DNA of 53,721 bases from Phycisphaerales bacterium (GTDB lineage: Bacteria; Planctomycetota; Phycisphaerae; Phycisphaerales; SM1A02): positions 1 to 53,721 of the forward strand of contig JAKVBU010000026.1 in the NCBI GenBank assembly GCA_022446885.1, written 5' to 3'. The notes under the pieces are model-generated. The model searched no databases and was not told where the DNA came from. It saw only the letters and a program-made list of their open reading frames with translations. Position numbers and translations under genes: made by a program. This document shows, in pieces, positions 4,196 to 22,532 of this stretch. Numbering within the stretch: position 1 is the stretch's first letter; each line of letters begins with the position of its first letter.

Positions 4196-4962
4196 TCATC
4201 AGTGCCGTCATCCCGGCGGCGGGTTGTTCAGATCGATTCGGGGAGGACAAGCTGGCCCGCTCGCTAGGGGGGCGTCCTGTGCTGGTGCGAGCGGTTGAGG
4301 CGTTGTCCCGACGCGATGAGATTCGTGAGATCATCGTCGCTGGTCCTCCCGGGCGGATGGACGAGTTCCGCGAACGGTTTGGAGCGGTGCTGGGCTTTCT
4401 TGGGGCAACTGTCATTGAAGGTGGGGCGCAGGCCCGCTGGGAGAGCGTTCGCAACGGGGTGCAGCACGTGAGCGATGACTGCACCCACATCGCGGTGCAT
4501 GACGCTGCTCGACCCTGTCCGTCTGATGCCATGCTTGATCGACTTCTGCTCGCTGCGGGAGAGGTCGGGGCGGTGGTGCCTGGGCTGCGGATCACATCGA
4601 CAGTCAAGAAGGTGGATGACAGCAAGGCGCAGGAGATTCGTGACGGAGACGCCCTAGCAGATGCGATCCTCGGTAGCGACTGCGGCCCGAGCGTTCAGGT
4701 GTCGCCGATCAAGGAGACTGTTGATCGCAACGGTCTTGTGCTTGTGCAGACACCGCAGATCTTTGAGGCTTCGCTCTTACGCGCCGCCTTTGAACAGGGC
4801 GATGCCGATGGGTGCACCGATGAGGCGGCTCTTCTTGAGCGTCTGGGGCATGAGGTACATGTCGTAGAGGGTGATCCGTTGAACATCAAACTCACGACAC
4901 CAGGCGATTGGCCGCTGGCCGAAGCCGCACTTGCCAGAGCAGGATCGGGCTCAGGCGCATGA
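4192..4962 (+). CDS. ispD: 2-C-methyl-D-erythritol 4-phosphate cytidylyltransferase
   Basis: This is the third enzyme of the non-mevalonate isoprenoid pathway; it joins CTP and MEP to give CDP-ME in the cytoplasm. The N-terminal nucleotide loop PAAGCSDRFG is at residues 8-17, HDAARP at 103-108 and QTPQ at 186-189, all in family order. The length of 256 exceeds the usual 225-235 because of an acidic insertion at about 143-173, between the TVKK strand and TVDRNG. The start is GTG, within a four-base overlap with the DUF1573 gene; the end overlaps the glycosyltransferase ATG by four bases. The downstream enzyme also concerns polyprenyl-phosphate chemistry, which suits the pairing. Confidence 0.93.
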   Translation: MIISAVIPAAGCSDRFGEDKLARSLGGRPVLVRAVEALSRRDEIREIIVAGPPGRMDEFRERFGAVLGFLGATVIEGGAQARWESVRNGVQHVSDDCTHIAVHDAARPCPSDAMLDRLLLAAGEVGAVVPGLRITSTVKKVDDSKAQEIRDGDALADAILGSDCGPSVQVSPIKETVDRNGLVLVQTPQIFEASLLRAAFEQGDADGCTDEAALLERLGHEVHVVEGDPLNIKLTTPGDWPLAEAALARAGSGSGA

Positions 4963-6104
4963 GTGATGGCATCAGGATCAGTGTGATCGTGCCTACCTAT
5001 GAGGAGGCTGGCAATATCGCTGAGCTCGTGCAGCGCATCGATGCCTCGCTGGACGTTGAGCACGAGATCATCCTCGTTGACGATGATTCCCAGGATGGCA
5101 CACCCGAAGTGGTCGAGGGGCTGGGGCTGGCGCATGTTCGACTTCTTGTTCGCAAGGACGAGCGAGGGCTCAGTGGAGCGGTGCTGCGTGGGCTCGCTGA
5201 GGCTCGAGGACAGACGCTGGTCGTGATGGATGCAGACCTGTCACATCCGCCCGAAGCCATCGTGCAGATGCAGGCGGCAATCAGTGACGGGGCCGACTTC
5301 GTGGTGGGGTCGAGATACGTGCCCGGTGGATCTACCGAGGACGGCTGGGGCTTTCTCCGCTGGGTGAACTCCATGGTTGCCACGGTGATTGCTCGCCCGT
5401 TCACGACGGTTCGTGATCCCATGAGCGGCTTCTTCGCCATGCCCCGCTCGGTCTGGACCGACGCGACCGACCTGGACCCGGTGGGCTACAAGATCGCCCT
5501 TGAGCTCATGGTCAAGTGTGGATGCACGGATGTGCGAGAGGTGCCCATTCACTTCTCGACCCGCCGCCATGGTGAGAGCAAGTTGTCGCTCAGGGTGCAA
5601 TTGGAGTTCTTGCTCCACATCGTCAAACTGATGCGGTGGAAGTTCCCAGGTTGGTCGAGCCTTGTTCCGTTCGCACTGGTGGGCCTCTCGGGGATGGGTG
5701 TCTACGTGGGGCTGCTGTCGGCGGCCGGCGCGATCTGGCCTGATGCTTCGACGCTGCCCAAAGCGATCGGGGCGGCGCTCGTGACCATCGTCTGGAACTT
5801 CCTGCTCGATCGTCGCTTCGCCTTTTGGTACGCCCGCAGTGGCAGTGTCTTCGGGCAGTTCTTGGGCTTCTTGGCGATCTGCGCCATTCCTGTGACGATC
5901 AACATCCTCGCGACTGTCTGGTTGGCTGAGGACACCATGGTGACGCCGCTGGCCGCTGCAGTGGGATCGCTGATCGGTTCAGCTGCCGGTCTTCTGTTCA
6001 ACTGGTTGATGAGCAGGTGGCTCATCTTCGGACGAAAGACCCCCGGCAAGGTGAACAAGGCCAAGCGTGAAGTGTCAGCGAAGTCATCTTGCAAGGGAGA
6101 CTGA
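4959..6104 (+). CDS. Polyprenol-phosphate glycosyltransferase (GT2) fused to a GtrA membrane domain
   Basis: Residues 5-230 are a GT2 domain like dolichol-phosphate mannose synthase: VPTYEEAGNI at 11-20, DDDSQDGT at 41-48, the metal-binding DAD at 91-93, and later GSRY, DPMSGFF and GESKL motifs. Residues 235-365 form four hydrophobic segments of the GtrA family. Such proteins transfer a sugar (often mannose or glucose) from a nucleotide donor to undecaprenyl phosphate at the inner face of the membrane, with GtrA helping to flip or hold the lipid. The sugar is not known. The ATG is coupled to the ispD stop (ATGA), which favours 4959 over an upstream ATG inside ispD. The C-terminus is lysine-rich. 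Confidence 0.9.
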   Translation: MSDGIRISVIVPTYEEAGNIAELVQRIDASLDVEHEIILVDDDSQDGTPEVVEGLGLAHVRLLVRKDERGLSGAVLRGLAEARGQTLVVMDADLSHPPEAIVQMQAAISDGADFVVGSRYVPGGSTEDGWGFLRWVNSMVATVIARPFTTVRDPMSGFFAMPRSVWTDATDLDPVGYKIALELMVKCGCTDVREVPIHFSTRRHGESKLSLRVQLEFLLHIVKLMRWKFPGWSSLVPFALVGLSGMGVYVGLLSAAGAIWPDASTLPKAIGAALVTIVWNFLLDRRFAFWYARSGSVFGQFLGFLAICAIPVTINILATVWLAEDTMVTPLAAAVGSLIGSAAGLLFNWLMSRWLIFGRKTPGKVNKAKREVSAKSSCKGD

Positions 6105-10103: not shown

Positions 10104-11246
10104 TCAGCCCAGTTCGCGTCGCTGGAAGAGCATGATGCCCAGTGCCAGTGCGACAAGCGTGTAGAGCAAGCCGTATCCAAGTGCGGACAGTAGATACTCG
10201 CCGGGAATCAGGACGCCCTGCGTGAGCGCGTCACTGAGCCAGAGCACCTGGAAATTGGGCACCAGCCCGTAGGCGGCCTTGAGCAGGAACCAAGGGAGCA
10301 ATTCCCAGCCTTGGGCAAACGAGGTCAGTGACATGGTCGCGACCTCGACAGGCCTGATGATCTGTTCCGGGTCTTCTCCGACGCGGTTCATGATCGTTGT
10401 GACGTCGATCGTCTCGACATCACCGGCAGCGCGGGCTCTGTCAAGCCACTGGGCCTCGAGCCGTTGGAGTGGACGAGCGAACAGCCAGTCAGAGAGCAGG
10501 CCGATCATGAGGGTGGCGAGGGTCGCCAGCAGGGTCATCAATTGGCCCAGCCGGGTTGAAAATGCGATGGCAAAGGCCGCCAGCATGCACTCAGCCATGG
10601 CGATACCGGCGACGGCCAGCCACAACTGTCCGTTGAACTGACGGGACATGGGCTGTGGAGAAAAGTCGGCCTTGAAGTTCAGCGCCAGCAGCCAGGCGAT
10701 GAGCAACAGGGGCGTCACGACGAACAGGGTCGTGCTGGTAAAGACCATTCCGTAGAAGTAATTGCACCACACGGCCACGGCCAGCCCCACGATCAACGCC
10801 CCGAAGCCGAAAATCAGAACTGGAACATGCACCGGATCGCGGACTGTCTGGATCACAGAATGCATCTCAGTGAGCATGAAGACCAATGACAGGCACAGCA
10901 CTGTCAGGAGCAGGGCACAACTGACACCGATGAACTTGCCCACCAGGAAGACGGTTCTGCTGACCGGCTTGGAAATCACGGTCAGGGCTGTCTTTTGAGC
11001 GATTTCGCGGCCCAGAACGCCCGTCGCGATGAATGCGGCCAGAACCGCGCCCCCGGTGAAGACGGTCGCCAGGCCGATATCGATGAGCATTCGCTGGTCT
11101 TCGCCCATGGTGAAGGCGGCCAGAGGGTTGCTCATCACGATCAGGAGAGCTGCTCCGGCGACCACCACCAAGGTGATGGGCTGTCGGATGCTCTCAAAGA
11201 AGGTGTTCCGGGCAATGGCCAGCAACTGCGTGGGCATCGCCGGCAT
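10104..11246 (-). CDS. ABC-2 type transporter permease
   Basis: The 380-residue protein has about six to seven hydrophobic spans. An ABC-2 signature loop follows the second span region: [16 protein letters not shown] at 79-94, then [13 protein letters not shown]. The same SKP...L.GK.(I/L)GV pattern is found in the large permease at 17065-19200, so the two are related. There is a soluble loop at about 265-320. No ATPase gene is adjacent on this strand; the nearest is the ABC ATPase at 15875 in the divergent operon, a reasonable partner. The start could be 11246 or 11237 (MPAMP). uvrA follows after four bases. Confidence 0.85.
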
Positions 11247-11403
11247 GGTACGGGCACCTGTACCCTCGGCGGGCGAAGTTTCACCATCGAGCCGCGCATG
11301 GTACATTTTCGCCCCGTCGGCCCCATCCTGTGCGAACCGACGGAGTCCTGTTCGAGTATCCCTTGGACTTACTTGCCCCGGCCTGAGGAGCGCCCGAACC
11401 AAG
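11247..11403. promoter_or_regulatory. Divergent intergenic region between permease/uvrA and the SPFH operon
   Basis: These 157 bases must hold promoters for both directions. A weak plus-strand candidate is TTTCAC at 11279-11284 and TACATT at 11302-11307, with a 17-base spacer. A GAGGAG lies 12 bases before the SPFH start. The hexamers match poorly, so only the region, not the exact promoter, is supported. Confidence 0.35.
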
Positions 11404-13539
11404 ATGCGTGTCGATCATCTCGCCTTTCAGAAGGCTCTCAATATCACGGTCATGGGCCTGTTGCTGCAGGCCGCCGTGGGAACGCTGCTGCTGGTCTTCG
11501 GGCTGGCCGTGGACGACTCCCCGGCCGTGCTCGCCTCGATCTGGTGTCTTGCTGGCCTGATTCCATGGGTCGGCTTGCTGGTGGTGTTTGCCCAGCATCG
11601 GCTGGAACGGCTCGAGTCGCTGGAAGAGGATGAACTCTCCGGCTCTGGGGCCGCCGCGATGTTCGATCGCTCTGGTGAGGCTATTCGCCCTGCCGCTCGT
11701 CGATTGCGTCAGACATATCGCTGGATTCTCCCGGCCTTCTCACTGGCGTTCGCCATCGGACTGACGGTGGCGGGCTGGCTGTCTTTGGATCATCTGCAGA
11801 ACGAAGATCTGCATGAGATGCCACTGACGGCGTCCAAGGGGTGGCTCGAGGCCATCCTGTTGGCAACTGCAGCCTTGACGTTCGTCTGGTCTCGCTATCT
11901 GGCGGGCATGGCAGCGCAGGAAGCATGGCGGCACTTCCGCGCGGGTGCCGGCCAGATGGTGGTGACATCACTTGTCCTGGGCTTGCTGGCCGTGGGCGTG
12001 GGCTTCCGCTTCTTCGGGGTCGATGGTGTGGTGGAGGTGGTGGCCTGGGCCATTCCGATCCTCATGTTCGCCGTCGCCTTGGAGATTGTGCTCTCGCTGG
12101 TGCTCGATGCCTATCGCCCGCGGCGGGCAGGTGAGTTTCCTCGGGCCGCATTTGACTCCCCGAGTTTGGGCCTTCTGGCACAACCTGGATCAGTCGTTCG
12201 CTCGATCAACGAGGCGGTCAACTACCAGTTCGGCTTCGACATCACCAGTTCCTGGGGATATCAACTGCTGCTGCGAAGTTCCCTGGGCCTTGGCGGTCTG
12301 GCGATCATTGTGCTGTTGCTGATGAGCACCGTTGTGGTGGTTGGCCCCAGACAAGAGGGCATCCGGCTGCGACAGGGTGCGATCGTTGGTGGAGAAGGGG
12401 ACCAGATCAAGACACCAGGGCCCTTTGGCAAACTGCCTTGGCCGCTGGAATCCGCCCAGTTGTACGACGTGACTTCGCTGCAGACGCTGCCAGTGACGCC
12501 TGTTCCCAAGGGCGAGCCCAAGTACTTCGATTGGCGGGAACCGCCTGATCTGGCCGACGGCGCATTTGAGCCGGCCTACATCGTGAAGCCATCGGGCCAA
12601 GGGGCTGGCGGCTCAGACGAGGCTGGTGATCAAACCGCGCTCGTGGTGCCCCATGTCAGAATCGTCTGGCGGGTGGCCAATGAAGGGTTGCTCGACTGGC
12701 TCGAGTTTGTGCCCGATGAGCGACTGCCCCGACAGCAGATCACGCAACAGCAACGAGCGCTGCAGATGATCGCCAATGCTCAGATGACACAGCTCTTTTC
12801 CGGGATGCGCCTTGACCAGGTGCTCTCGACCGAGCGAAACAGCCTTGGTGAACTGCTCAAGACTCGTATTCAAGATCAACTGGACAAGTTGGGCGCCGGC
12901 ATCGTGCTGGTCACTGTGGAGGTGCCCGAAGTTCGCCCGCCCAAAGATGCCGCGATCAAGTTTGAATCGCTTCCGGCTGCCATCCAGCAGCGTCAGCAGT
13001 GGGTTGCCGCTGCTGAGCGGCAGCGATCATCCAGCTGGACCCGCGTCGTAGGCGACACGGCGCTGGTCGATGACGTCATCAAGGCGATCGATGCCCACGA
13101 CGCAGCGCAGGATGGGTTGGCGACGGCCCGATCCGCCCACGGAGCCGACTCCCCCGAGGCGAAAGCCGCAGGGGAGAAGGTCGAAGCAACTTCAGAGGCC
13201 ACCATCGCCCTGCTGAAGCAAGGCGGCGGCACAGCGTGGCAGTCGATCGCCAACGCTGAGCGTGATGCGTTGGTTGATCTGATGAATGAACGAGCCCGTG
13301 TCAGCCGCCTGCACTCTCAGGCAGCATCCTGGCGAGCCGCTCCTGAGTTGTATCGGCAGCGTGCCTTGATGGGCGTCTACGCTCGCATGCTTCCCAAACT
13401 CCGCAAGTACGTGGTGGGTGTTGACCCGGCGCGGCTGGACCTCAATGTTGAACTTCGCGAGCACGCCTCGCCCAACACGATCTTCTCCGACACCCTGTCG
13501 TCAACTTCACCCGGCGACACGGGAGGTGGTACCCAATGA
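11404..13539 (+). CDS. Polytopic SPFH/Band 7 (HflK-like) protein
   Basis: The 711-residue protein is not a plain HflK. Residues 1-284 carry six hydrophobic spans (about 11-33, 41-62, 104-126, 147-165, 183-202, 209-235), and a seventh at 285-313 leads straight into an SPFH domain (VVVGPRQEGIRLRQG onward, about 314-540). Helical, Ala/Gln/Arg-rich sequence fills the C-terminal part to about 680. SPFH proteins assemble into membrane rings or cages; in E. coli HflK and HflC enclose FtsH, but no ftsH is here. The start at 11404 is chosen because upstream in-frame codons read through the divergent promoter region. The stop overlaps the next ATG (ATGA). The role is inferred to be assembly of a cage with the next two proteins. 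Confidence 0.87.
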   Translation: MRVDHLAFQKALNITVMGLLLQAAVGTLLLVFGLAVDDSPAVLASIWCLAGLIPWVGLLVVFAQHRLERLESLEEDELSGSGAAAMFDRSGEAIRPAARRLRQTYRWILPAFSLAFAIGLTVAGWLSLDHLQNEDLHEMPLTASKGWLEAILLATAALTFVWSRYLAGMAAQEAWRHFRAGAGQMVVTSLVLGLLAVGVGFRFFGVDGVVEVVAWAIPILMFAVALEIVLSLVLDAYRPRRAGEFPRAAFDSPSLGLLAQPGSVVRSINEAVNYQFGFDITSSWGYQLLLRSSLGLGGLAIIVLLLMSTVVVVGPRQEGIRLRQGAIVGGEGDQIKTPGPFGKLPWPLESAQLYDVTSLQTLPVTPVPKGEPKYFDWREPPDLADGAFEPAYIVKPSGQGAGGSDEAGDQTALVVPHVRIVWRVANEGLLDWLEFVPDERLPRQQITQQQRALQMIANAQMTQLFSGMRLDQVLSTERNSLGELLKTRIQDQLDKLGAGIVLVTVEVPEVRPPKDAAIKFESLPAAIQQRQQWVAAAERQRSSSWTRVVGDTALVDDVIKAIDAHDAAQDGLATARSAHGADSPEAKAAGEKVEATSEATIALLKQGGGTAWQSIANAERDALVDLMNERARVSRLHSQAASWRAAPELYRQRALMGVYARMLPKLRKYVVGVDPARLDLNVELREHASPNTIFSDTLSSTSPGDTGGGTQ

Positions 13540-14447
13540 AAAAGACAGTTGCGATCATCGTCGGCCTGATCATCGTCGGCGTGCTGGTTGTGTTCAGCAT
13601 GACCTTCTCGGTGGCCTACAACGAGGTTGTCATTCGTAGTCGCTTCGGTAAGGTCGATGAGTCGAGCATCGTTCGTGAGCCGGGCCTGCACTTCCGGCTG
13701 CCGTTCTTCGTCGACGCTATTCACCATCTCGACACAAGGCTGCAGTTGTTGGAGTCACCGCTGATCACGGTGCAGACCGCCGACGAGCAGCAGGTGGTGG
13801 TTCAGGGGTTCATGCTCTGGCGGGTAGACACGAAAGAGCAGGGGCCGCTGGAGTTCTACAGCAGGTATGCAGACATCGCGGAGGCCAAGTCGTCGCTGCG
13901 GACCCAGTTCCAGGATGCCCTCAACGAGATCGGCACCTTCAAACTGGATGAATTGCTCAGTGCAACCAGCGCCCTGCCTCAGGCAGAGGCCGCAGTGCTC
14001 GCACGCATGGAGGGGCTGGCTGCCGAGGGGATCAAGCCGGTTTCCACCGGGATCAGTCGGCTCGTCTTCAAGGAGTCAACGACCGGCGAGGTGACTCGTC
14101 GTATGCAGGCTCGACGCGAGACGCTGGCTGACAACGAGCGCACGCGAGGTGAGGCCGAGGCCCAACGCATTCGCTCCGAGGCCGAGACCACGGCCGAGAA
14201 GATCATGGCCTTCGCAGGTCAGCGGGCACAGGAGATTCGATCCAAGAGCGAAGAGCGGGCAGCTGAGTATCTGGCCCAGATGAGCCAGGACGAAGAACTC
14301 GCAGTGTTCCTCATCTGGATCGACACGCTTGAGAAGGCGCTCGCCCAGAACACCACCGTCCTGCTCGAGACCGATCAGATGCCCTGGGCGCTGCTCGACA
14401 CCTCGCGGATCAAGTCCCTCCAGAGCGGCGGAGCATCCGACAAGTGA
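13536..14447 (+). CDS. HflC-like SPFH/Band 7 protein
   Basis: The 303-residue protein has an N-terminal membrane span at about 5-27, an SPFH domain at about 27-200 (with FSVAYNEVVIRSRFG and PGLHFRLPF), and a long charged coiled-coil region (ARRETLADNERTRGEAEAQ and on) ending near residue 250. This is the usual HflC layout and length. It overlaps both neighbours by four bases (ATGA before, GTGA after), so all three SPFH subunits should be made in fixed proportion. I leave the symbol blank because genuine hflC is defined by its FtsH partnership, which cannot be shown here. Confidence 0.88.
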   Translation: MKKTVAIIVGLIIVGVLVVFSMTFSVAYNEVVIRSRFGKVDESSIVREPGLHFRLPFFVDAIHHLDTRLQLLESPLITVQTADEQQVVVQGFMLWRVDTKEQGPLEFYSRYADIAEAKSSLRTQFQDALNEIGTFKLDELLSATSALPQAEAAVLARMEGLAAEGIKPVSTGISRLVFKESTTGEVTRRMQARRETLADNERTRGEAEAQRIRSEAETTAEKIMAFAGQRAQEIRSKSEERAAEYLAQMSQDEELAVFLIWIDTLEKALAQNTTVLLETDQMPWALLDTSRIKSLQSGGASDK

Positions 14448-15874
14448 GCAACGAAGCGCACGACAACCCAGAACAAGCCCAGCAGCGTCGCGCCGCATCG
14501 GAACGGCTTGCTGATGGCGGGCAGGTGGGCGCCGAGGCCCAGTTGCGTGAGGCGATGGACCCTGCCAATCGGTCGCTGAATGAGGCCTTGCACCTGAGCT
14601 TTCGGGTGCTGCAGGTGGCCAGCGTGGCCCTTCTGGTGCTCTTCCTGTTCTCGGGTTTCCGAACCGTCGGAAACGTCCAGAGCGGGGTGGCAACCGTCTG
14701 GGGACGCATCGTTGATCCGGCCGGGCTTGAGCCCGGGCTTGCCATGAATTGGCCGCCTCCAGTGGGTGGGTTTGTGCTGTACGAAGCCGACAGTCGAACC
14801 GTCACCGACGGAAATGCGTTCGTCTCCCAGATGTTGTTGACGCACGGCGAGGCGAAGTCGGTCCAGCGAGCGATCACGACGGATCGGCTCAAGCCCGGTC
14901 GCGACGGATCGGTGCTGACGGCGAACGGCGAAATCTCGCACCTGCGGGCGATCGCTCACTACAAGGTTGATTCTCCAGCTCGATTCCTCGAGAACGTGGG
15001 TGATGCCAAGGCCGACAGGCTCGTGCAGTTGGCGCTGCAGCGGTCAATCGTGCAGGTCGGAGCGTCGCACACACTCAGTTATCTGCGCGACACGCTCACG
15101 ACCGACGGGCTGCGGTCCTTGATTCGAGACGGCGCCAATGAACTGCTCGATCAAGCCGGAGCTGGATTGGTCATCGCCTCGGTCGAGCTCAAGCAGGAGC
15201 CGCTCCCGCCCGCAGCCATCCAGAAGAATTTTGAGAACTACTCCAAGGTTCGGCAGCAGATGGCGGCAGATGTCGAGCGGGCCAAGCAGGCTGCTCAGGA
15301 GACGCTTCTGACGACCGCTGGTCCGATGCATGTCGAGTTGGCCGAGTTGATCGACCAATACGAACATGCAGATGAGGCGGGCGATGAAGCGAAGGCGGCT
15401 CAAGTGCTTGCGAAGATCGACACAGCACTGCAACGCGACGACGTCGCCGGCCGGGTCGCGCGAGTCATGGATGCCGCCAGCCGACACAAGATCGGTATCG
15501 AGCAGACCCTGGGCCGCGAGGCTCGTCTGGTTGCCGGCTTGCAGGATGCGTATCACCGTCAGCCTGAAGTCGTGGTGGCTCGTCGCTGGCTCGAAGCTGC
15601 CGGTCGTGTCTTCTCACGACCTGACATCGAGCTCTTCCATCTGCCTGAGGGCATGGGCCGTTTGGCAGTCGATATCACCGGATCGCAGACTGTTCGTGAC
15701 ATGCGTCGATCTCTGAAGCTCGACCAGGTCGACGCCGAGATTTGGGCTGCAGGATTCAGTGGATCTGCTACCGATCAGTTCCAGCACATCGATGAGATCA
15801 AGATGGACGATGCCGGTAGGCAACTGGCCGTCGATGAGAAGGGCCGAATCTCCGGCATGCGGGAGAAGGATTGA
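14444..15874 (+). CDS. HflK-like SPFH/Band 7 protein
   Basis: The 476-residue protein starts with GTG inside the HflC-like stop (GTGA). A hydrophilic N-terminus of about 50 residues precedes one span at about 52-73. The SPFH domain follows (GNVQSGVATVWGRIV, DPAGLEPGLAMNWPPP and on to about 265). The C-terminal 200 residues are predicted helical and charged. The proline-rich PGL.MNWPPP segment is an HflK-type loop. It is the third SPFH member of the cluster and is followed directly by the ABC ATPase, whose ATG begins at the base after the stop. Confidence 0.85.
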   Translation: MSNEAHDNPEQAQQRRAASERLADGGQVGAEAQLREAMDPANRSLNEALHLSFRVLQVASVALLVLFLFSGFRTVGNVQSGVATVWGRIVDPAGLEPGLAMNWPPPVGGFVLYEADSRTVTDGNAFVSQMLLTHGEAKSVQRAITTDRLKPGRDGSVLTANGEISHLRAIAHYKVDSPARFLENVGDAKADRLVQLALQRSIVQVGASHTLSYLRDTLTTDGLRSLIRDGANELLDQAGAGLVIASVELKQEPLPPAAIQKNFENYSKVRQQMAADVERAKQAAQETLLTTAGPMHVELAELIDQYEHADEAGDEAKAAQVLAKIDTALQRDDVAGRVARVMDAASRHKIGIEQTLGREARLVAGLQDAYHRQPEVVVARRWLEAAGRVFSRPDIELFHLPEGMGRLAVDITGSQTVRDMRRSLKLDQVDAEIWAAGFSGSATDQFQHIDEIKMDDAGRQLAVDEKGRISGMREKD

Positions 15875-17068
15875 ATGGTCAGCAAGACGACCGGTTCGGG
15901 CACACTCGTTGAGGCCGTCGGCCTCACCAAGGTGTTTCGCGACTTCTGGATGCGCTCGCGGGCCCGAGCTGTAGACGACATCGACTTCACGATCCACTCG
16001 GGCACCATCTTCGGCATGCTCGGCCCCAACGGTTCAGGCAAGAGTACGACCATCAAGATGATCCTGGGGCTACTTCGGCCCACTGGAGGCCGGCTGGCAG
16101 TATTTGGCCGACCGCCCACCGATGTGGCCGTAAAGCGGCACATCGGGTTCTTGCCGGAAGAGTCTTATCTCTATCGATACCTGACACCGCTGGAAACGCT
16201 CGATTACTACGGCCAGCTCTTTCGTATTCCCCGGCCTGAGCGTCGGCGCCGTGCAGAAGAGCTGCTTGAGATGGTTGGCCTGACGGCGGTCGCACATCGT
16301 CCGGTAGGGGAGTTCTCCAAGGGCATGACCCGTCGGATCGGCCTCGCCCAGGCGCTGATCAATGATCCGGAACTGCTCATTCTCGACGAGCCCACAAGCG
16401 GGCTGGATCCACTGGGCACTCGTCAGGTGAAGGAGTTGCTCGTTGAGTTGCGATCTCGCGGCAAGACCATCCTGCTCAGCTCGCACCTGCTCGCAGATGT
16501 GCAGGATGTGTGCGACGACATGGTGATGCTCTACGGCGGTCGTATTCAGGCCCGCGGCACGGTCGACGAACTGCTGGCCGATACGGATCACACGCTGATC
16601 AAGGCGCCCCGCCTCAGCAGCGAAGTCATCGAACAGATCGAGGGCGTGCTGCAGAAAGCCGGTGTTGGCATCGAGTCAGTGGAGTCTCCCCGGCAGCGGC
16701 TCGAGGACCTCTTCATGGACATCGTGGAGAAGGCTCGCGCTGCACAGATGGCGACCTCGGGCGCACTGAGTGGTGGCGAGACTGCTGAATTCCTGCGTAC
16801 TGACGGCCCGGAAGATGAGGCCGAGGCGCTGCTTGAGCAACTGCAGCGTGAGGCGCCGCAGGTTGAATCTGCCCCGGCTCGTGCCGCGGCCGAGGCGCAA
16901 GAGGCAAAGGCGCAGGAGAAGGCCCAGCAAGATGCCCTCATGAGTGACCTGACAAAGGAAGAGGCGCCGGCCGCTGACCCCACAGAGGCCTCCAGCGGCG
17001 GTCCCGACGCGGGCATGATCGAGGGGCTCCTCGACGGTGGTGATGATGAAACGGAGTCCAAGGATTGA
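15875..17068 (+). CDS. ABC transporter ATP-binding protein with acidic C-terminal tail
   Basis: The nucleotide-binding domain has Walker A GPNGSGKST at 50-58, Q-loop region GFLPEESYLY at 91-100, a degenerate signature FSKGM at 147-151 in place of LSGGQ, and Walker B LLILDEP at 167-173 with SGLDP. This is the ABC-2 exporter type (CcmA/NatA-like). Residues from about 290 to 397 form an Ala/Glu/Asp-rich tail of low complexity that most family members lack. The start is ATG at the base after the previous stop. The stop overlaps the permease TTG by four bases. It is the likely motor for the following permease and possibly for the divergent one at 10104. Confidence 0.92.
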   Translation: MVSKTTGSGTLVEAVGLTKVFRDFWMRSRARAVDDIDFTIHSGTIFGMLGPNGSGKSTTIKMILGLLRPTGGRLAVFGRPPTDVAVKRHIGFLPEESYLYRYLTPLETLDYYGQLFRIPRPERRRRAEELLEMVGLTAVAHRPVGEFSKGMTRRIGLAQALINDPELLILDEPTSGLDPLGTRQVKELLVELRSRGKTILLSSHLLADVQDVCDDMVMLYGGRIQARGTVDELLADTDHTLIKAPRLSSEVIEQIEGVLQKAGVGIESVESPRQRLEDLFMDIVEKARAAQMATSGALSGGETAEFLRTDGPEDEAEALLEQLQREAPQVESAPARAAAEAQEAKAQEKAQQDALMSDLTKEEAPAADPTEASSGGPDAGMIEGLLDGGDDETESKD

Positions 17069-19200
17069 GCCTGATCGACGCACTTCGCCGTGCGCTCGAG
17101 CGTGCCCAGCGCCGAATCTGGGTGCGGGTGATCGCTTCGATCGTCGTCATCGCGGCGGGCTTGTTGATCTTTGGTCGAGCCGCTTGGCAGGGGCAGGCAT
17201 TCATCGATCGCTTTTTGGAGGTCCGTGATGCGCTTGTCTCAGATGAAGCCCATGTCTGGGCAGTCGATCTCCTTGAGAACGGACGTGCCGAGATTGGCGG
17301 CGCGTTCATTGAACTTGATCCCTCCATCGGCGAGAACCTGATCACGCCGGAGGGGGAGATTCGCAGCGTTGATGAACTCGTCGCCGTGATGATGGCGCCG
17401 CTGCAACCAGCCAATGTGCCCTCGTGGCTGTGGAAAGAACCATCTGTCGCATGGGGCATGGCGGCCGCTGCGATCACGACCGGGCTTGTGGCCGTATGGA
17501 CGGGTCTCATTCCGCTCTTGGTGCTGCTGGGCGTGCCAGCGGGTCTGGCTTCTTGGGGCTTGTGGTTGCTGGGGGCGTCTGAGGGCGCACTGGCGCTCTC
17601 AACGGCTGCCGTATTGCTGGTGCTTTTTCACGCTTTGACGCGAATGCTCATGCTCGGCATGGAGTTGATCGGACCAGCTGGTGCCGTGGCCGCCACCGTT
17701 CTGCGAGAGTCGGGACGCAGCAGGGTCGCGCTGGCGTTCGTGATCACCTTGCTGATCCTCTTGCCGCTGCTGCCACTGAGTCTGGATACCGGCGCCCCCC
17801 TTCGTCATCAGGTGCAGTCGTTGCTGGATCGAAGTTTGAGCCTGACCTTTGCGATGGTCGCCGTGATGACGATGGCATTGGGGTGCAGCACGATCGCGTT
17901 CGACATTCGCGATCGGCACATCTGGCATCTGGTGAGCAAGCCACTGGGCACGCACAGTTATCTGGCCGGAAAGTGGTTGGGCGTCATCTCGTTGAATGCC
18001 GTCGTGTTGATCATCGGGTCTACCTTCGCGGCTGCATGGACGGGATATCTGCGCTGGTCTCCGCCTCCAGATGCGATGAACTCGGCGGCTGACATCGCGA
18101 TCGTGTCCGACGAGATTCTCACGGCCCACGCAGAGCGAACACCTGACTACCCCGAGCTCGATGAAAATGAGATCCGCAATCGTGTGGAAGCCATCCTGCG
18201 GGAGGATCCCGAGTACGCCCAGTACACCGACTCGGTGCCTCCTCCTCGCCTGGTTCGGGTGCTGCGGGAAGAAGTCCGGGACGAGTACGGAATGGATCAG
18301 CGTCGGGCTGAGTCCATCTTGAACCAGTCGGTCGATCCGTGGAAGTCGGTCACATTCAGTGGGCTGGGAGATGTTCGTGAGCAGTTGCTGAGCGCATCGG
18401 GGGAGTCGCTCAATCTGAGGTTGCGTTTCAGGTTGTACGGTGGCTCCTCAGACGAGCATCAGCGTCGACTGGTTGGCATCGCCATCAATGGACAGCTCGA
18501 GAATGGTCGGGCAGGCGCCTTCATTCCGACGGTGCGGCAGCAGATCATGATTTCGCCGCGTGCCATTCGTGAAGACGGCACGCTGGAAGTCACATTCGTG
18601 AATCTCACGCACTGGCCGGTGCCAGCCGGAATCAACTGGCAGCCGGCAGATCTTCGGGCGATCACCGAAGCGCCGCCTCAGCGAGCACCATTCGCCATTG
18701 TCTGGGAGGCTCAGGATATTGAGCTTCTGTATCCAGCCGGAGGGTTCTTGGGCACCTATACCAGGGCAATGGTGGTGCAGTGGGTCAAGCTTGCCGCACT
18801 GTCCGCCGTTGCCTGCTTCATGGCCACGTTTCTGAGTTTCCCCGTGGCCTGTCTGGCTTCTCTCACGATCCTGGCTGGAGCCGCGTTGGGCCCATTCCTC
18901 TCGCAAGCGCTTGGGTTCTTCACGCCACCACCACTTCAGGCGGTGGAGGGGGTCGGGCAGACGATCTCGTGGGCCCTTGACAGTTTCATTCGAACAATCG
19001 CCAGCACGCTGGTGTATCTGCTGGGTTCATTCGGTGAGTTCACACCCATCGAGCGCGTCATTCAGGGTCGAGTCATCGATTGGGCGATGGTCGGCCGCAG
19101 CGTGCTGCAACTGGGCCTCTTCTGGTGTGGTCCGTTGTTGCTCACGGGTTGGTGGATCCTCAGAAACCGGCAATTGGCGCTCTACAGCGGAGATTCTTGA
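17065..19200 (+). CDS. Large ABC-2 permease with extracytoplasmic domain
   Basis: The 711-residue membrane protein starts with TTG in a TTGA overlap. There is a span at about 22-41, a soluble stretch to about 125, five or six spans between 130 and 325, a soluble domain at about 330-570, and more spans at about 575-615 and 665-700. The ABC-2 loop reads FDIRDRHIWHLVSKP at 279-293 then AGKWLGV at 301-307, as in the divergent permease. The 240-residue soluble domain has beta-rich sequence and no name I recognise; it might contact the SPFH cage or substrate. Substrate unknown. Confidence 0.83.
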   Translation: MSLIDALRRALERAQRRIWVRVIASIVVIAAGLLIFGRAAWQGQAFIDRFLEVRDALVSDEAHVWAVDLLENGRAEIGGAFIELDPSIGENLITPEGEIRSVDELVAVMMAPLQPANVPSWLWKEPSVAWGMAAAAITTGLVAVWTGLIPLLVLLGVPAGLASWGLWLLGASEGALALSTAAVLLVLFHALTRMLMLGMELIGPAGAVAATVLRESGRSRVALAFVITLLILLPLLPLSLDTGAPLRHQVQSLLDRSLSLTFAMVAVMTMALGCSTIAFDIRDRHIWHLVSKPLGTHSYLAGKWLGVISLNAVVLIIGSTFAAAWTGYLRWSPPPDAMNSAADIAIVSDEILTAHAERTPDYPELDENEIRNRVEAILREDPEYAQYTDSVPPPRLVRVLREEVRDEYGMDQRRAESILNQSVDPWKSVTFSGLGDVREQLLSASGESLNLRLRFRLYGGSSDEHQRRLVGIAINGQLENGRAGAFIPTVRQQIMISPRAIREDGTLEVTFVNLTHWPVPAGINWQPADLRAITEAPPQRAPFAIVWEAQDIELLYPAGGFLGTYTRAMVVQWVKLAALSAVACFMATFLSFPVACLASLTILAGAALGPFLSQALGFFTPPPLQAVEGVGQTISWALDSFIRTIASTLVYLLGSFGEFTPIERVIQGRVIDWAMVGRSVLQLGLFWCGPLLLTGWWILRNRQLALYSGDS

Positions 19201-19206
19201 TCGTCC

Positions 19207-21186
19207 ATGCAGCGTGATCGGGTCATTCAGGCAGTGGCGGGGGCAGTCGTGGTAGGTGGCGCTGCGGCGTCTGCGGTCGTGGTTCCCAACCTCGTGGAAG
19301 ATGCCCAGCGGCACACCCTCCGCTACACGGACGCGTCAGTCGAGAACGCCCCGCCGATCGTTGCCCTCGGCACGGCCATCGGCGCCCTGCGAGGCCTGAT
19401 TGTTGACTGGCTCTGGATCAAGGTCAACATGATGCAGGACGAGGGCCTGTATTACGACATTCTCGAAGATGCCAGGCTCATCACGAAGTTGCAGCCCCGC
19501 TTTGCGCCGGTGTGGACATTCCACGGCCACAACATGGCCTACAACCTGTCGGTGCAAACCAACACGCCCCAGGAGCGATGGGAGTGGGTACGCAAGGGTA
19601 TTGATCTCGTCCGAAATGAAGGGCTGCGGTACAACCCCAACGAGTTGCTGCTCTACAAAGATCTGGCCTTCTGGCTGGATCACAAGGTGGAAGGCGTCAG
19701 TGACGACGCCCACCCTCTGTACAAGCGGGAGTTTGCCAAGGAATGGCACGATCTGCTTGGGGAGCCGCCTCGATCTTGGGATGAGAGAACAGCTTGGATG
19801 CAGGCGATGGCCGATGCGCCCACGTCGCTTGAGGTGCTCGTCGATATCAATCCCCAAGCGGCCGAAGTCGTCCAGAAGCTCCGAGATGAGCTTGGACCAC
19901 TGCTGCCACCCGAAGCAGATCCGCTCTCGCCGGAACTGCTGAGGATGCTGGCGATGCTCGATGCGATCGAGGGAGCCTCGTATACAGCTCGCACACTTGA
20001 TCTTGCCGGAATGCTGGAATCTGGCGGCGATCTGGTGATGGGCAAACTCAGCGAGCTTCGCAATGACGAATCGCTGCAGGCTGGTTGGGATGCCCTGCTG
20101 GCACAGATGCGCTCGCAGGTGCTACGCGATCGATACAACATGGATCCGGTGCTCATGGCCGAGTACACCCGTGATCTGGGGCCCATCGACTGGCGGCACC
20201 CACAGGCGCACGCTCTTTACTGGGCGCGAACGGGCGGAAAGAAGGCCGAGCGGCGGCTGCGTGAGGAGAAGATCCACCACGCGATCAACACCGATCGCCA
20301 GCAATTGCACTCGCTGCAGGATCTGGCTCGAGGTGGGCGGGTGATGTACGACCCCTTCAACCCGGTTCCGCCCGGTCGATTCCCCGAGCCAGACTTCATC
20401 GACACCACGCAGCAGATGTTCGATGACCTCTATCTGAAGTACTACGACGCCCGCGGCATGGGCGGTGAGACCTTCCTGGAGTTCATCAAGAACTTCCTCG
20501 GTCACAATATTCGCGTCGCGTTTCGTCAAGGCGAAATCGAACGGGCGCAGAAGCTCTACGAGAAACTCGATGATCGATTTGGTCGCGGTGCCTTCCCGCC
20601 AAACCCGATGTACTCACGGCCACTGGAAGTCTTCGTACGGGAGATCGGCCGTGACGAGTATGACCGCCAACCCTACGTGGCCTTGAGTGACGTGCTGGGT
20701 GCATTGCGCTATGCCTTCCGGATCGGCATCGGTCAGGATCGCCCCGAGGTGTTCGAAGAGGCCCTCTCGTTTGCCAATGAGGTCACCGAGTACTTCCGTA
20801 CCCATGACGACATGGACTTCGACAGCAAGCTGGGCACTGCCCGAATGCGAGATCTCGTCGGGCGACTGTCGCAGAGTGTTCCCATGGCCTTCGTGCAATT
20901 GATGTCGGATCCGACGGTGCCGCTTGAAGAACGAGCGACTATCTGGGCGCAGGTTGATGATCTTGAGCCCCAACTGCGGGTACGAACATGGGATCAGATT
21001 CGTCCTTGGCTGGTGGCCGAGATCGACAACGGGCCGCTTGCGGGCAAGGTGAACGTCGATGAGGCCTTCCCGGAGCCCCCAGGCATGGAAGCATGGCGGG
21101 CCCAGCTCGCCGCCGAGGCGCTTCGAAACCAGCAGCAACTGGATGCAGGTCAGGGCGCTGGCGTCGAGCGCACGGGTGATCGCTGA
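19207..21186 (+). CDS. Conserved membrane-anchored protein of unknown function at the end of the SPFH-ABC operon
   Basis: The 659-residue protein has one N-terminal span at about 8-28 and then a long soluble, mostly helical part rich in Trp, Tyr and Arg. A highly structured stretch at about 55-110 (with LRGLIVDWLWIK, LQPRFAPVWTFHGHNMAYN) resembles TPR-like helical pairs, but I cannot name a domain. I recall similar proteins only from planctomycetes. It starts six bases after the permease stop and so belongs to the same transcript. Its likely side is outside the inner membrane. A role as scaffold or substrate-handling partner of the exporter is inference from position only. Confidence 0.8.
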   Translation: MQRDRVIQAVAGAVVVGGAAASAVVVPNLVEDAQRHTLRYTDASVENAPPIVALGTAIGALRGLIVDWLWIKVNMMQDEGLYYDILEDARLITKLQPRFAPVWTFHGHNMAYNLSVQTNTPQERWEWVRKGIDLVRNEGLRYNPNELLLYKDLAFWLDHKVEGVSDDAHPLYKREFAKEWHDLLGEPPRSWDERTAWMQAMADAPTSLEVLVDINPQAAEVVQKLRDELGPLLPPEADPLSPELLRMLAMLDAIEGASYTARTLDLAGMLESGGDLVMGKLSELRNDESLQAGWDALLAQMRSQVLRDRYNMDPVLMAEYTRDLGPIDWRHPQAHALYWARTGGKKAERRLREEKIHHAINTDRQQLHSLQDLARGGRVMYDPFNPVPPGRFPEPDFIDTTQQMFDDLYLKYYDARGMGGETFLEFIKNFLGHNIRVAFRQGEIERAQKLYEKLDDRFGRGAFPPNPMYSRPLEVFVREIGRDEYDRQPYVALSDVLGALRYAFRIGIGQDRPEVFEEALSFANEVTEYFRTHDDMDFDSKLGTARMRDLVGRLSQSVPMAFVQLMSDPTVPLEERATIWAQVDDLEPQLRVRTWDQIRPWLVAEIDNGPLAGKVNVDEAFPEPPGMEAWRAQLAAEALRNQQQLDAGQGAGVERTGDR

Positions 21187-21187
21187 C

Positions 21188-21256
21188 TCGCTTGGCTCAA
21201 GCTTGGGGGATCATTCGCTTCGCTCAAGCGTCGCAGGTCATTCGCTCCGCTCAAGC
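21188..21256. repeat. 27-bp tandem repeat, three copies with hairpin core
   Basis: The core TCGCTT(G/C)GCTCAAGC recurs with exact 27-base spacing at 21188, 21215 and 21242 (third copy TCGCTCCGCTCAAGC). In the middle copy the core can fold as CGCTT/AAGCG around a five-base loop. The repeat fills the gap between the converging SPFH operon and the FAH-family gene, and the third copy contains the stop codon of the latter. It may act in transcription termination or be a dispersed intergenic element; three copies without spacers rule out a CRISPR array. Confidence 0.75.
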
Positions 21257-21934
21257 ATCTTCAATCACGCGATTACGTAAACGACCGACGCCCTCGATCT
21301 CGACAATCACCTCATCCTGATCGGCGAGATAGACCGGCGGTGTGCGAGCGGCGCCCACGCCCGAGGGTGTGCCCGTAAGCAGCAAGGTGCCTTGCAGCAA
21401 GGTCATGCCTCGGCTGAGTTCAGCGATGAGCGTAGCCACTGGGAAGATCATGTCGGCCGTCGATGCTTCCTGCATCAACTCACCATTGACCCATGTTCGA
21501 AGCATCAATGATTGCGGGTCTGAGATCGCCTCCGGTCCCACTGGCGTGCTGACGGGGCAGAATGTGTCGAAGCTCTTGCCTCGAATCCACTGGCCGCCCG
21601 ATCCGTTTTTCTGCCACCAACGGGCGCTGACATCATTTGCCACCGCCCACCCGGAGACGGCTTTGAGTGCATCTTGCTCCGAGACATCTCTGCAGTCACG
21701 ACCGATGACGGCGACCAACTCGCCTTCAAAGTCCACCTGTGGGCCGTTTGTTCGGCAGATCGAAGGAATGACGATGTCCTCGCCATCTGCACAGATCGCC
21801 GCCGGGTTCTTCATGAAGACGGTGGGGCGTTCGGGCACCTGCCCCTGCATCTCCGCGGCATGGGCGGCGTAGTTGCGACCAATGCAGATGATGGCGGGGG
21901 ATGGACTCATGAAGTGGGGGCCGGTCGAGTTCAT
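21251..21934 (-). CDS. Fumarylacetoacetate hydrolase (FAH)-family protein
   Basis: The 227-residue protein matches the FAH fold of acylpyruvases, HpaG-type isomerases and related enzymes. CIGRNYAAHAAEM is at 17-29, the metal-ligand motif DFEGELVAVIG at 68-78 supplies E70 and E72, and D101 comes from ANDVSAR. A later GTPSGVG loop is also typical. These enzymes cleave or isomerise beta-diketo acids using Mg2+. The start at 21934 sits in an ATGA overlap with the yidD stop, so it is translationally coupled to a membrane-biogenesis gene, which is an odd partner. The exact substrate is unknown. Confidence 0.9.
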   Translation of the reverse strand: MNSTGPHFMSPSPAIICIGRNYAAHAAEMQGQVPERPTVFMKNPAAICADGEDIVIPSICRTNGPQVDFEGELVAVIGRDCRDVSEQDALKAVSGWAVANDVSARWWQKNGSGGQWIRGKSFDTFCPVSTPVGPEAISDPQSLMLRTWVNGELMQEASTADMIFPVATLIAELSRGMTLLQGTLLLTGTPSGVGAARTPPVYLADQDEVIVEIEGVGRLRNRVIEDA

Positions 21935-22173
21935 TGGCGATCTTCGTGTTCGGGAACCGGATCGTAGCCAGCACCGCCGCATGGGTGGCACCGCATCAGG
22001 CGGCGGAGCGTCAGGGCGCCCCCACGCAGGGCTCCGAATCTTCTGATGGCCTCAGCGCCATATCGGGAGCAGGTCGGTTGGAATCGACAGTGCCCGCCCA
22101 TCAGGGGGCTCAGGGTCGCCTGATAGAGCCGAATCAGGCCAAGCAAGATCACGGCGGCCGGGGATCGTTTCAT
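21931..22173 (-). CDS. yidD: Membrane protein insertion efficiency factor
   Basis: The 80-residue protein has the family's order: a hydrophobic amphipathic start (AAVILLGLIRLYQATLSPL), CRFQPTCSRYGAEAI, GALRG, and a C-terminal RCHPCGGAGYDPVP. YidD is thought to sit at the inner face of the membrane and help YidC insert proteins. It overlaps the rnpA stop by four bases (ATGA), and rnpA-yidD is the classic bacterial order. yidC does not follow here; an FAH-family gene does. Confidence 0.95.
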   Translation of the reverse strand: MKRSPAAVILLGLIRLYQATLSPLMGGHCRFQPTCSRYGAEAIRRFGALRGGALTLRRLMRCHPCGGAGYDPVPEHEDRQ

Positions 22174-22532
22174 GTGCCCAGCCGGTTGTTCAGCGAATTG
22201 GCGGCGTCCCGAAGGGCGGCGCTGAAGTCGATCGGTGTCGAGGGTGCGTGTGGGCGAATGACGACGACCAGATCGAGATCGGCAGGCAATTCGTGCCGCA
22301 GACATCGGAAGGCCTCTCGCGCACGGCGTTTGAGCGAATTTCGTCGTGGTGCATGGCCCACGCGGCGTCCCACAGCCAGCCCGAGTCTGCACTGCCCAAT
22401 GGAGTTTCGAGCGCCGTGAATGACAAGCGGGCCGGCTCGGTGAACCTGGCCGCTTGCAAACACCTGCTCAAACTCGCGGCGGCTGCGGATGCGAGCTGAC
22501 CTTGGAAACGTCTGCCCGGTTTGCTCAGGCAT
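22170..22532 (-). CDS. rnpA: Ribonuclease P protein component
   Basis: The 120-residue basic protein binds RNase P RNA and helps process tRNA 5' ends. It begins with SRREFEQVFASG and carries the RNR-like helix RRNSLKRRAREAFR at about 77-90, where the usual RNR is RNS. A DLVVVIRP strand follows. The start at 22532 (MPEQTGQTF) gives the normal length and overlaps the end of the ClC gene by eight bases. The usual upstream partner rpmH is not in this window. Confidence 0.93.
   Translation of the reverse strand: MPEQTGQTFPRSARIRSRREFEQVFASGQVHRAGPLVIHGARNSIGQCRLGLAVGRRVGHAPRRNSLKRRAREAFRCLRHELPADLDLVVVIRPHAPSTPIDFSAALRDAANSLNNRLGT

Follow-up and report, generated by a model that had tools for sequence, protein, structure and literature searches.

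The SPFH proteins HflK and HflC contain one transmembrane helix each and together form a 24-subunit cage, as described in two reports (PMC12624060, PMC13220708). Predicted N-terminal transmembrane regions were described in all but two of twelve prokaryotic SPFH groups, and Planctomycetes were named among the hosts of SPFH proteins, in PMC2636767, a text in which the words 'ABC transporter' are absent. Apart from FtsH, the contents of SPFH cages, and the existence of a cage made for a single client, are an open question. Among the matches listed from the open-licence literature, no description was found of a seven-span SPFH protein or of its locus.

Such a protein, here called subunit A, is encoded in the window, the whole stretch of DNA analyzed (53,721 nucleotides, positions 1 to 53,721 of contig JAKVBU010000026.1 of a Phycisphaerales bacterium). 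Its gene lies in a cluster with the order second ABC permease, seven-span SPFH protein, HflC-like protein (subunit B), HflK-like protein (subunit C), ABC ATPase, ABC permease and TPR protein. The open reading frame of A and its coordinates were confirmed. Within the protein, six spans (residues 1-240) are followed by a cytosolic linker, an HflK-type span and the SPFH domain. The features are:

10104-11402, minus strand: second permease, probably of ABC-2 type, divergent (ABC2_membrane_2, 27.0 bits, cut-off 27.2)
11404-13539, plus strand: subunit A, 711 residues
11404-12123, plus strand: residues 1-240 of A, six-span domain with predicted CDF (YiiP/ZnT) fold and loss of the metal site (AlphaFold2, VIA-align, hhalign, site columns)
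12124-12249, plus strand: residues 241-282 of A, predicted cytosolic linker, holding the protein's most conserved stretch (INEAVNYQFGFDIT...)
12250-12330, plus strand: residues 283-309 of A, seventh span, equivalent of HflK's single anchor
12337-13023, plus strand: residues 312-540 of A, HflK-like SPFH (Band_7) domain (Pfam E 9.4e-13; Foldseek HflK E 2.3e-10)
13024-13539, plus strand: residues 541-711 of A plus stop, helical C-terminal region (AlphaFold2)
13536-14447, plus strand: subunit B, HflC-like SPFH protein, 303 aa (TIGR01932 E 2.7e-30, 105.3 bits, below the cut-off of 134.4)
14444-15874, plus strand: subunit C, HflK-like SPFH protein, 476 aa, GTG start (Band_7 E 8.8e-10; TIGR01933 E 3.8e-12, below cut-off)
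15875-17068, plus strand: ABC ATPase, 397 aa (PF00005, 112.9 bits)
17065-19200, plus strand: permease of 711 aa, probably of ABC-2 type, containing large loops, listed with a TTG start (weak by Pfam alone, 16.2 against a cut-off of 25)
19207-21186, plus strand: TPR-like partner protein, 659 aa, with relatives in many Planctomycetota

The genes for A and B, B and C, and the ATPase and permease overlap by 4 nt, those for C and the ATPase abut, and the permease and TPR genes lie 6 nt apart, so that a single operon is likely. The second permease has its listed start, a TTG, at 11402; by eye, an ATG near 11237-11246 looks likelier. Among model matches of the ATPase, those to DrrA and GldA rank first, at scores under the respective cut-offs, and in the 711-aa permease family 25/29 proteins match ABC2_membrane_2 at E ≤ 0.1. 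TPR models match at most 3/21 members of the partner family (best E 0.0014) and none in the window protein. A match of residues 273-403 of C to type III pantothenate kinase (E 1.3e-6) was taken as chance or composition. Elsewhere in the window, the reading frame at 4908-6104 presumably joins a polyprenol-phosphate glycosyltransferase to a GtrA-like membrane part, and the two minus-strand frames at 21251-22392, which overlap in different frames, we take to be a fumarylacetoacetate hydrolase family protein and YidD; these assignments were made by eye.

The cluster was followed through 146 loci, in sets of 80, 40 and 26. The 80 were kept from 143 relatives and are Planctomycetota by title or, once, unlabelled; 20 of the last 26 were chosen from genomes with the TPR gene and without an A hit. 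Subunit A is present in 124/146 loci, in one copy each. Where the contig reaches far enough beside A for a locus to be testable, A is accompanied by B in 115/117 cases, by C in 107/109, by the ATPase in 93/99, by the permease in 90/94 and by the TPR protein in 8/8, while the second permease is found in 96/110 (81 divergent, 15 co-directional). Exceptions are one locus with A and no recognised partner (L161) and one with A, B and C and no ABC genes nearby (L178). With the profile of the N-terminal domain, scores fall to 43-59 bits for five A proteins (L201-L205) that are among the most distant. As judged from these sequences, the fusion is fixed within a cluster conserved in many Planctomycetota families. 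Our favoured reading, to which we give slightly better than even chances, is that the three SPFH proteins form an assembly dedicated to the ABC exporter, the N-terminal part of A serving as a pseudo-CDF domain that may dock onto it.

The SPFH half of A is recognised by Band_7 (49.0 bits, over the Pfam cut-off of 23.6), and its fold was matched by Foldseek to chains of HflK, erlin, stomatin, QmcA and flotillin (E 2.3e-10 to 1.7e-5). A is set apart from HflK by its seven spans versus a single N-terminal one, and the HflK equivalog model TIGR01933 gives it 48.7 bits, under the curated cut-off of 159.4. Since the SPFH parts are nearest to HflK and HflC, the trio might be this lineage's own HflKC, modulating FtsH, with the ABC neighborhood reflecting co-regulation only. 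In agreement with this, the window's own genome (G000) contains one FtsH M41 match, and no SPFH match was seen there outside this cluster; its HflK-model matches number three, both of those listed lying on contig C28, in this cluster. However, the FtsH match is on a contig other than that of the cluster, and the trio accompanies ABC genes in nearly all testable loci. Moreover, in 4/61 genomes (G012, G032, G041, G049) A coexists with an HflK that is encoded separately on another contig, scores above the curated cut-off (268-279 bits) and is adjoined by a second SPFH match. An HflKC role for the trio is unlikely in our judgment.

A dedicated assembly, as favored above, may be compared with the occurrence of the exporter genes themselves. 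An A match was obtained in 60/61 genomes (the window's own and 60 relatives); G004, the sole genome without one, has no HflK-model match, yet three CDF matches. Of 392 sampled Planctomycetota genomes, the near profile detects the six-span domain in 76 and the wider profile in 82, and relatives of the TPR partner, itself without Pfam match, occur in 271; absences in these scans are soft, as at most five candidates per genome were taken for the A domain and at most three for TPR. When the lists were compared by hand, the TPR gene was present in 80/82 A-bearing genomes, the two others (G266, G355) being 67% and 64% complete. The 20 loci chosen without an A hit contain the permease and TPR genes in 20/20, the ATPase in 19/20 (about 5 kb of DNA separates it from the permease in L217; the L225 contig is 3.5 kb long) and a second permease in 8/20, with SPFH matches in 0/20 within the stretch read. 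These gene contents indicate that the ABC-TPR cassette may include the SPFH trio or do without it. In the ATPase trees, 6 changes of the SPFH label are needed, 2 of them forced by supported branches, and the trio is likely old in Planctomycetota, with repeated loss or gain. As a side observation, the 659-aa TPR-like protein next to the ABC permease is a candidate phylum marker. Among plasmids, there was no match at E 0.01.

The exporter cassettes with and without SPFH genes also differ in their ATPase. The ATPase of the window has a 161-residue C-terminal tail from about 16583, with the motifs LMSDLT near 16937-16954 and MIEGLL near 17015-17032. Beyond the ABC core, the median tail is 166 residues beside SPFH genes (94 loci) and 64 residues (52-111) without them (19 loci), L043 and L169 having been dropped from the comparison as cut by contig ends. 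Tails of at least 132 residues are found in 92/94 SPFH loci, short ones despite SPFH genes being those of L165 (70 residues) and L200 (29 residues). The difference is also seen when 28 distant SPFH loci are compared with the 19 without (Mann-Whitney p 2.3e-7), and in the tree set, where tails of at least 125 residues occur in 40/42 SPFH loci and 0/19 others. Within the tails, a motif of two hydrophobic residues, two residues, Leu and a hydrophobic residue is repeated, with 175 copies in 93 tails (window included) versus 2.9 (sd 1.7) in 1000 shuffles; 72/93 tails hold at least two copies, 84/93 have one within the last 25 residues, and none was found in the three SPFH-minus tails of testable length. 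The motif was defined after inspection of the tails, and the link between SPFH genes and tail has no more than two supported independent pairs behind it (sign test median p 0.5), so that this phylogenetically thin correlation is a lead and not proof. By eye, the ATPase tail seems to lengthen stepwise, being short with one permease; several second-permease cassettes show a TSGAxxGGxxAxFL-like tail stretch, and those with SPFH genes the motif repeats.

The earlier note had described A as an SPFH domain fused to seven membrane spans, six of which precede the usual one, and this architecture is upheld. Seven main peaks stand out in the family-mean hydropathy profile of A, near residues 23, 52, 117, 158, 192, 225 and 304, the threshold also being crossed by single residues 45 and 204. 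AlphaFold2 placed helices at 2-36, 39-50/52-80, 96-132, 145-169, 178-202, 208-237 and 283-309, six spans thus falling within residues 1-240 and the seventh at 283-309. The full-length model (69 sequences) has a mean pLDDT of 82.6 and a pTM of 0.53, and residues 1-314 modelled alone (66 sequences) gave 84.3 and 0.77 with the same helices. Confidence is low for the linker 241-282 when modelled alone and very low for the last ~30 residues. In the window protein, with loop limits set by hand, the predicted inside loops hold 2+8+2+6 = 18 Arg and Lys residues and the outside loops between TM1 and TM6 0+1+0 = 1, with 5 after TM7, also outside. This charge distribution fits an orientation with the N-terminus inside and the SPFH domain outside.

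Structural comparison assigned the six spans to a transporter fold. With VIA-align, ranks 1-30 for the model of residues 1-314 against the PDB are all cation diffusion facilitators (CDF; Z 8.5 to 19.1), the best being YiiP 8f6k (Z 19.1, 205 residues, rmsd 3.1 Å), with model residues 5-243 superposed on chain residues 5-214. The first non-CDF fold has Z 7.0, GPCRs and other helical proteins lying at Z ≤ 7.0. Foldseek gave CDF rows a probability of 0.82-1.00 among the 50 listed for the N-terminal model, with weak E-values (best 0.049). On the full-length model, the CDF matches cover residues about 1-247; residues about 284-697 are matched by HflK, erlin, prohibitin and stomatin. The modelled six spans of A have the fold of YiiP/ZnT-type CDFs. 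The cytosolic ferredoxin-like C-terminal domain of CDFs is absent from the AlphaFold2 model of A, in which TM6 ends at 237 and is followed by a ~45-residue linker with two short helices and then TM7.

Independently of the structural model, profile comparison with phylum-wide alignments agrees with a sequence relation between A and CDFs. Comparing 111 N-terminal domains with a CDF alignment (A4; 16 rows of PF01545 matches from related genomes, some short or weak), hhalign gave Prob 89.6 to 92.6 (P 1.9e-6 to 4.5e-7), versus Prob ≤ 3.2 and P ≥ 0.013 for controls (the reversed CDF alignment and seven other locus families, at two settings). The 33 distant rows alone reached Prob 95.7 (P 1e-8), the sole control being the reversed CDF alignment (P 0.08), and the 78 close rows alone Prob 36.2 (P 3.7e-4). 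The close-family alignment (A3) gave Prob 24.8 (P 7.9e-4) against A4. Plain sequence searches do not reveal this kinship. No Pfam or NCBIfam family covers the first 285 residues at E 0.1; PF01545 was not listed for A at that threshold of the Pfam scan and has 0 matches in the window's own genome. A profile of 32 members (A5; 31 distant ones and the window protein) was searched against the PDB sequences and retrieved no CDF chain at E 1. When these members were scanned with Pfam, Cation_efflux was matched by 4/32 (best E 0.01) and the unrelated HTH_Tnp_Tc5 by 5/32 (best E 0.0048), and since the latter outnumbers the former the scan shows nothing alone. Weak phmmer matches to NPC1L1 (best E 0.039) were taken as chance or composition.

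The six spans could be a mere bulky anchor, spacing or dimerising the ring subunits without contacting a partner; the pairing of transmembrane domains in known CDF dimers would suit such a role. Conservation argues otherwise. The YQFGF stretch of the linker is nearly invariant, with Y274 kept in 122/124 rows by hmmalign and 123/125 by MAFFT, and G277 in 124/124 and 125/125, respectively. Moreover, residues 1-285 are more conserved than the SPFH part (mean modal fraction 0.66 versus 0.48 for residues 321-711), which is unusual for a mere anchor. We consider a bare anchor quite improbable.

Alternatively, the CDF-like domain may still be an active transporter, for a substrate other than divalent metal. 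Its fold is that of a transporter, and E227 (codon 12082-12084), embedded in the membrane in TM6 of the domain, is Glu in 125/125 rows with both aligners and could be a coupling residue. Under the ligand scheme that we assume for ZnT-type CDFs, the TM2 ligands fall on W47 and G51 and the TM5 ligands on Q184 and T188; these columns were taken from the hhalign alignment and agree with the residue offset of 29 in the VIA-align superposition. Across 125 rows (A from 124 loci and the window), aligned with hmmalign and MAFFT, Asp occurs at none of the four columns. By hmmalign and MAFFT, respectively, His is found at 47 in 15/116 and 15/117 rows, at 51 in 0/116 and 0/116, at 184 in 10/122 and 10/123, and at 188 in 0/123 and 2/123. 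At least three of the four ligands are kept as D, H, E or C in 0/125 rows, one row keeping two. The alignments indicate that the tetrahedral metal site formed by TM2 and TM5 is lost in A. This loss, the absence of a cytosolic CDF domain behind the six spans and the small number of further buried polar residues conserved in them speak against transport, which we hold to be quite unlikely, even though the invariant E227 hints at a role beyond docking.

These results divide the proposal of the earlier note that a polytopic subunit could itself bind substrate or the permease. Binding of the permease within the ring appears the most natural option, because ABC and SPFH genes, including those of two ABC permeases, travel together with A. 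Metal as the bound substrate is less likely, as the CDF-like domain is without a metal site, and a substrate other than metal is possible given the invariance of E227.

A misplaced start or an assembly artefact, by which the N-terminal part and the SPFH domain would belong to separate translation products, has a negligible chance of being right and was rejected: GC-rich DNA does keep frames open, that of A back to an ATG at 11029, but the fusion is retained across many families, most homologue alignments begin at residue 1-4, every homologue row reaching there has an ATG aligned with M1, and in raw translation Met is read at the aligned position in 76/76 usable homologues (of 80 loci, with four truncated ones, L021, L036, L038 and L043, dropped), which rules out a start near residue 280. 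Together with the hydropathy profile and the model of residues 1-314, which predict residues 1-284 to be membrane-spanning, the start data thus answer both objections named in the earlier note, a non-membrane N-terminal part and a downstream start.

A profile search with the N-terminal domain alone, as the earlier note had proposed, turned up no convincing separate copy in the 146 loci read. Four N-domain frames are without an in-frame SPFH domain; two lie at contig ends (L175, L182) and two beside a frame with the rest (L166, L173), and they are therefore cut, split or frameshifted genes. A further short frame of 97 aa (G204, contig C271) starts 11 bases from a contig end. On these grounds, a stand-alone six-span protein was rejected for the Planctomycetota genomes covered.

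Taken together, A would be an SPFH ring subunit of the HflK type in which a degenerate membrane domain of CDF fold, a pseudo-transporter, has taken the place of the cytosolic N-terminus. By homology to HflK, A may assemble with B and C into a heteromeric SPFH cage of the inner membrane that is dedicated to the locus's own ABC-2 exporter with its two permeases, one ATPase and TPR partner. The six-span domain and the conserved YQFGF linker would offer docking surfaces for the permeases, and the ATPase would be tethered to the ring by its long tail with the repeated hydrophobic motifs; the pairing of docking surfaces and the enclosure of the exporter are inferred. A fuller version, in which the exporter is caged by a three-part ring, the pseudo-CDF unit docks or gates the permeases and disordered tail repeats bind the ring, is put forward tentatively, the odds being somewhat against it. 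If true, a transporter would be confined in its own membrane microdomain. A also presents a transporter fold that has been reused, without its metal site, as a probable scaffold part. For this putative cage, the genome points to a candidate client, whose cassette is found both beside the cage genes and in their absence, and the ATPase tail, as candidate tether, lends itself to deletion tests.

Compared with HflKC-FtsH (PDB 7vhq, 9cz2), A shares with HflK the order of span, SPFH domain and helical C-terminal region as well as an adjacent HflC-like gene, and the SPFH domain, extracytoplasmic in HflK, is predicted to be outside in A too. Unlike HflK with its one span, A has six extra spans ahead and scores far under the HflK equivalog cut-off, and the cluster holds three SPFH genes versus two as well as ABC exporter genes, with FtsH elsewhere. 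With the CDF zinc transporters (YiiP/FieF, ZnT, SLC30), A has in common the six-helix fold in the same order and, judging from charges, the N-terminus inside; it differs in being without metal ligands or cytosolic C-terminal domain and in its fusion to a seventh span and SPFH domain. Like GldA/DrrA-type ABC-2 exporters, the locus encodes an ATPase of best match to the corresponding models, below their cut-offs, and permeases that are probably of ABC-2 type, whereas the ~160-residue motif-bearing tail and an operon with an SPFH trio and TPR partner set it apart from those exporters. In QmcA-YbbJ, YbbJ has membrane spans. That complex (SPFH-NfeD, PDB 8z5g) resembles the present case in joining an SPFH protein to a membrane partner, with a ring that for A is presumed; there, however, the partner is a separate NfeD protein, whereas in A the CDF-like domain is fused to the SPFH chain itself.
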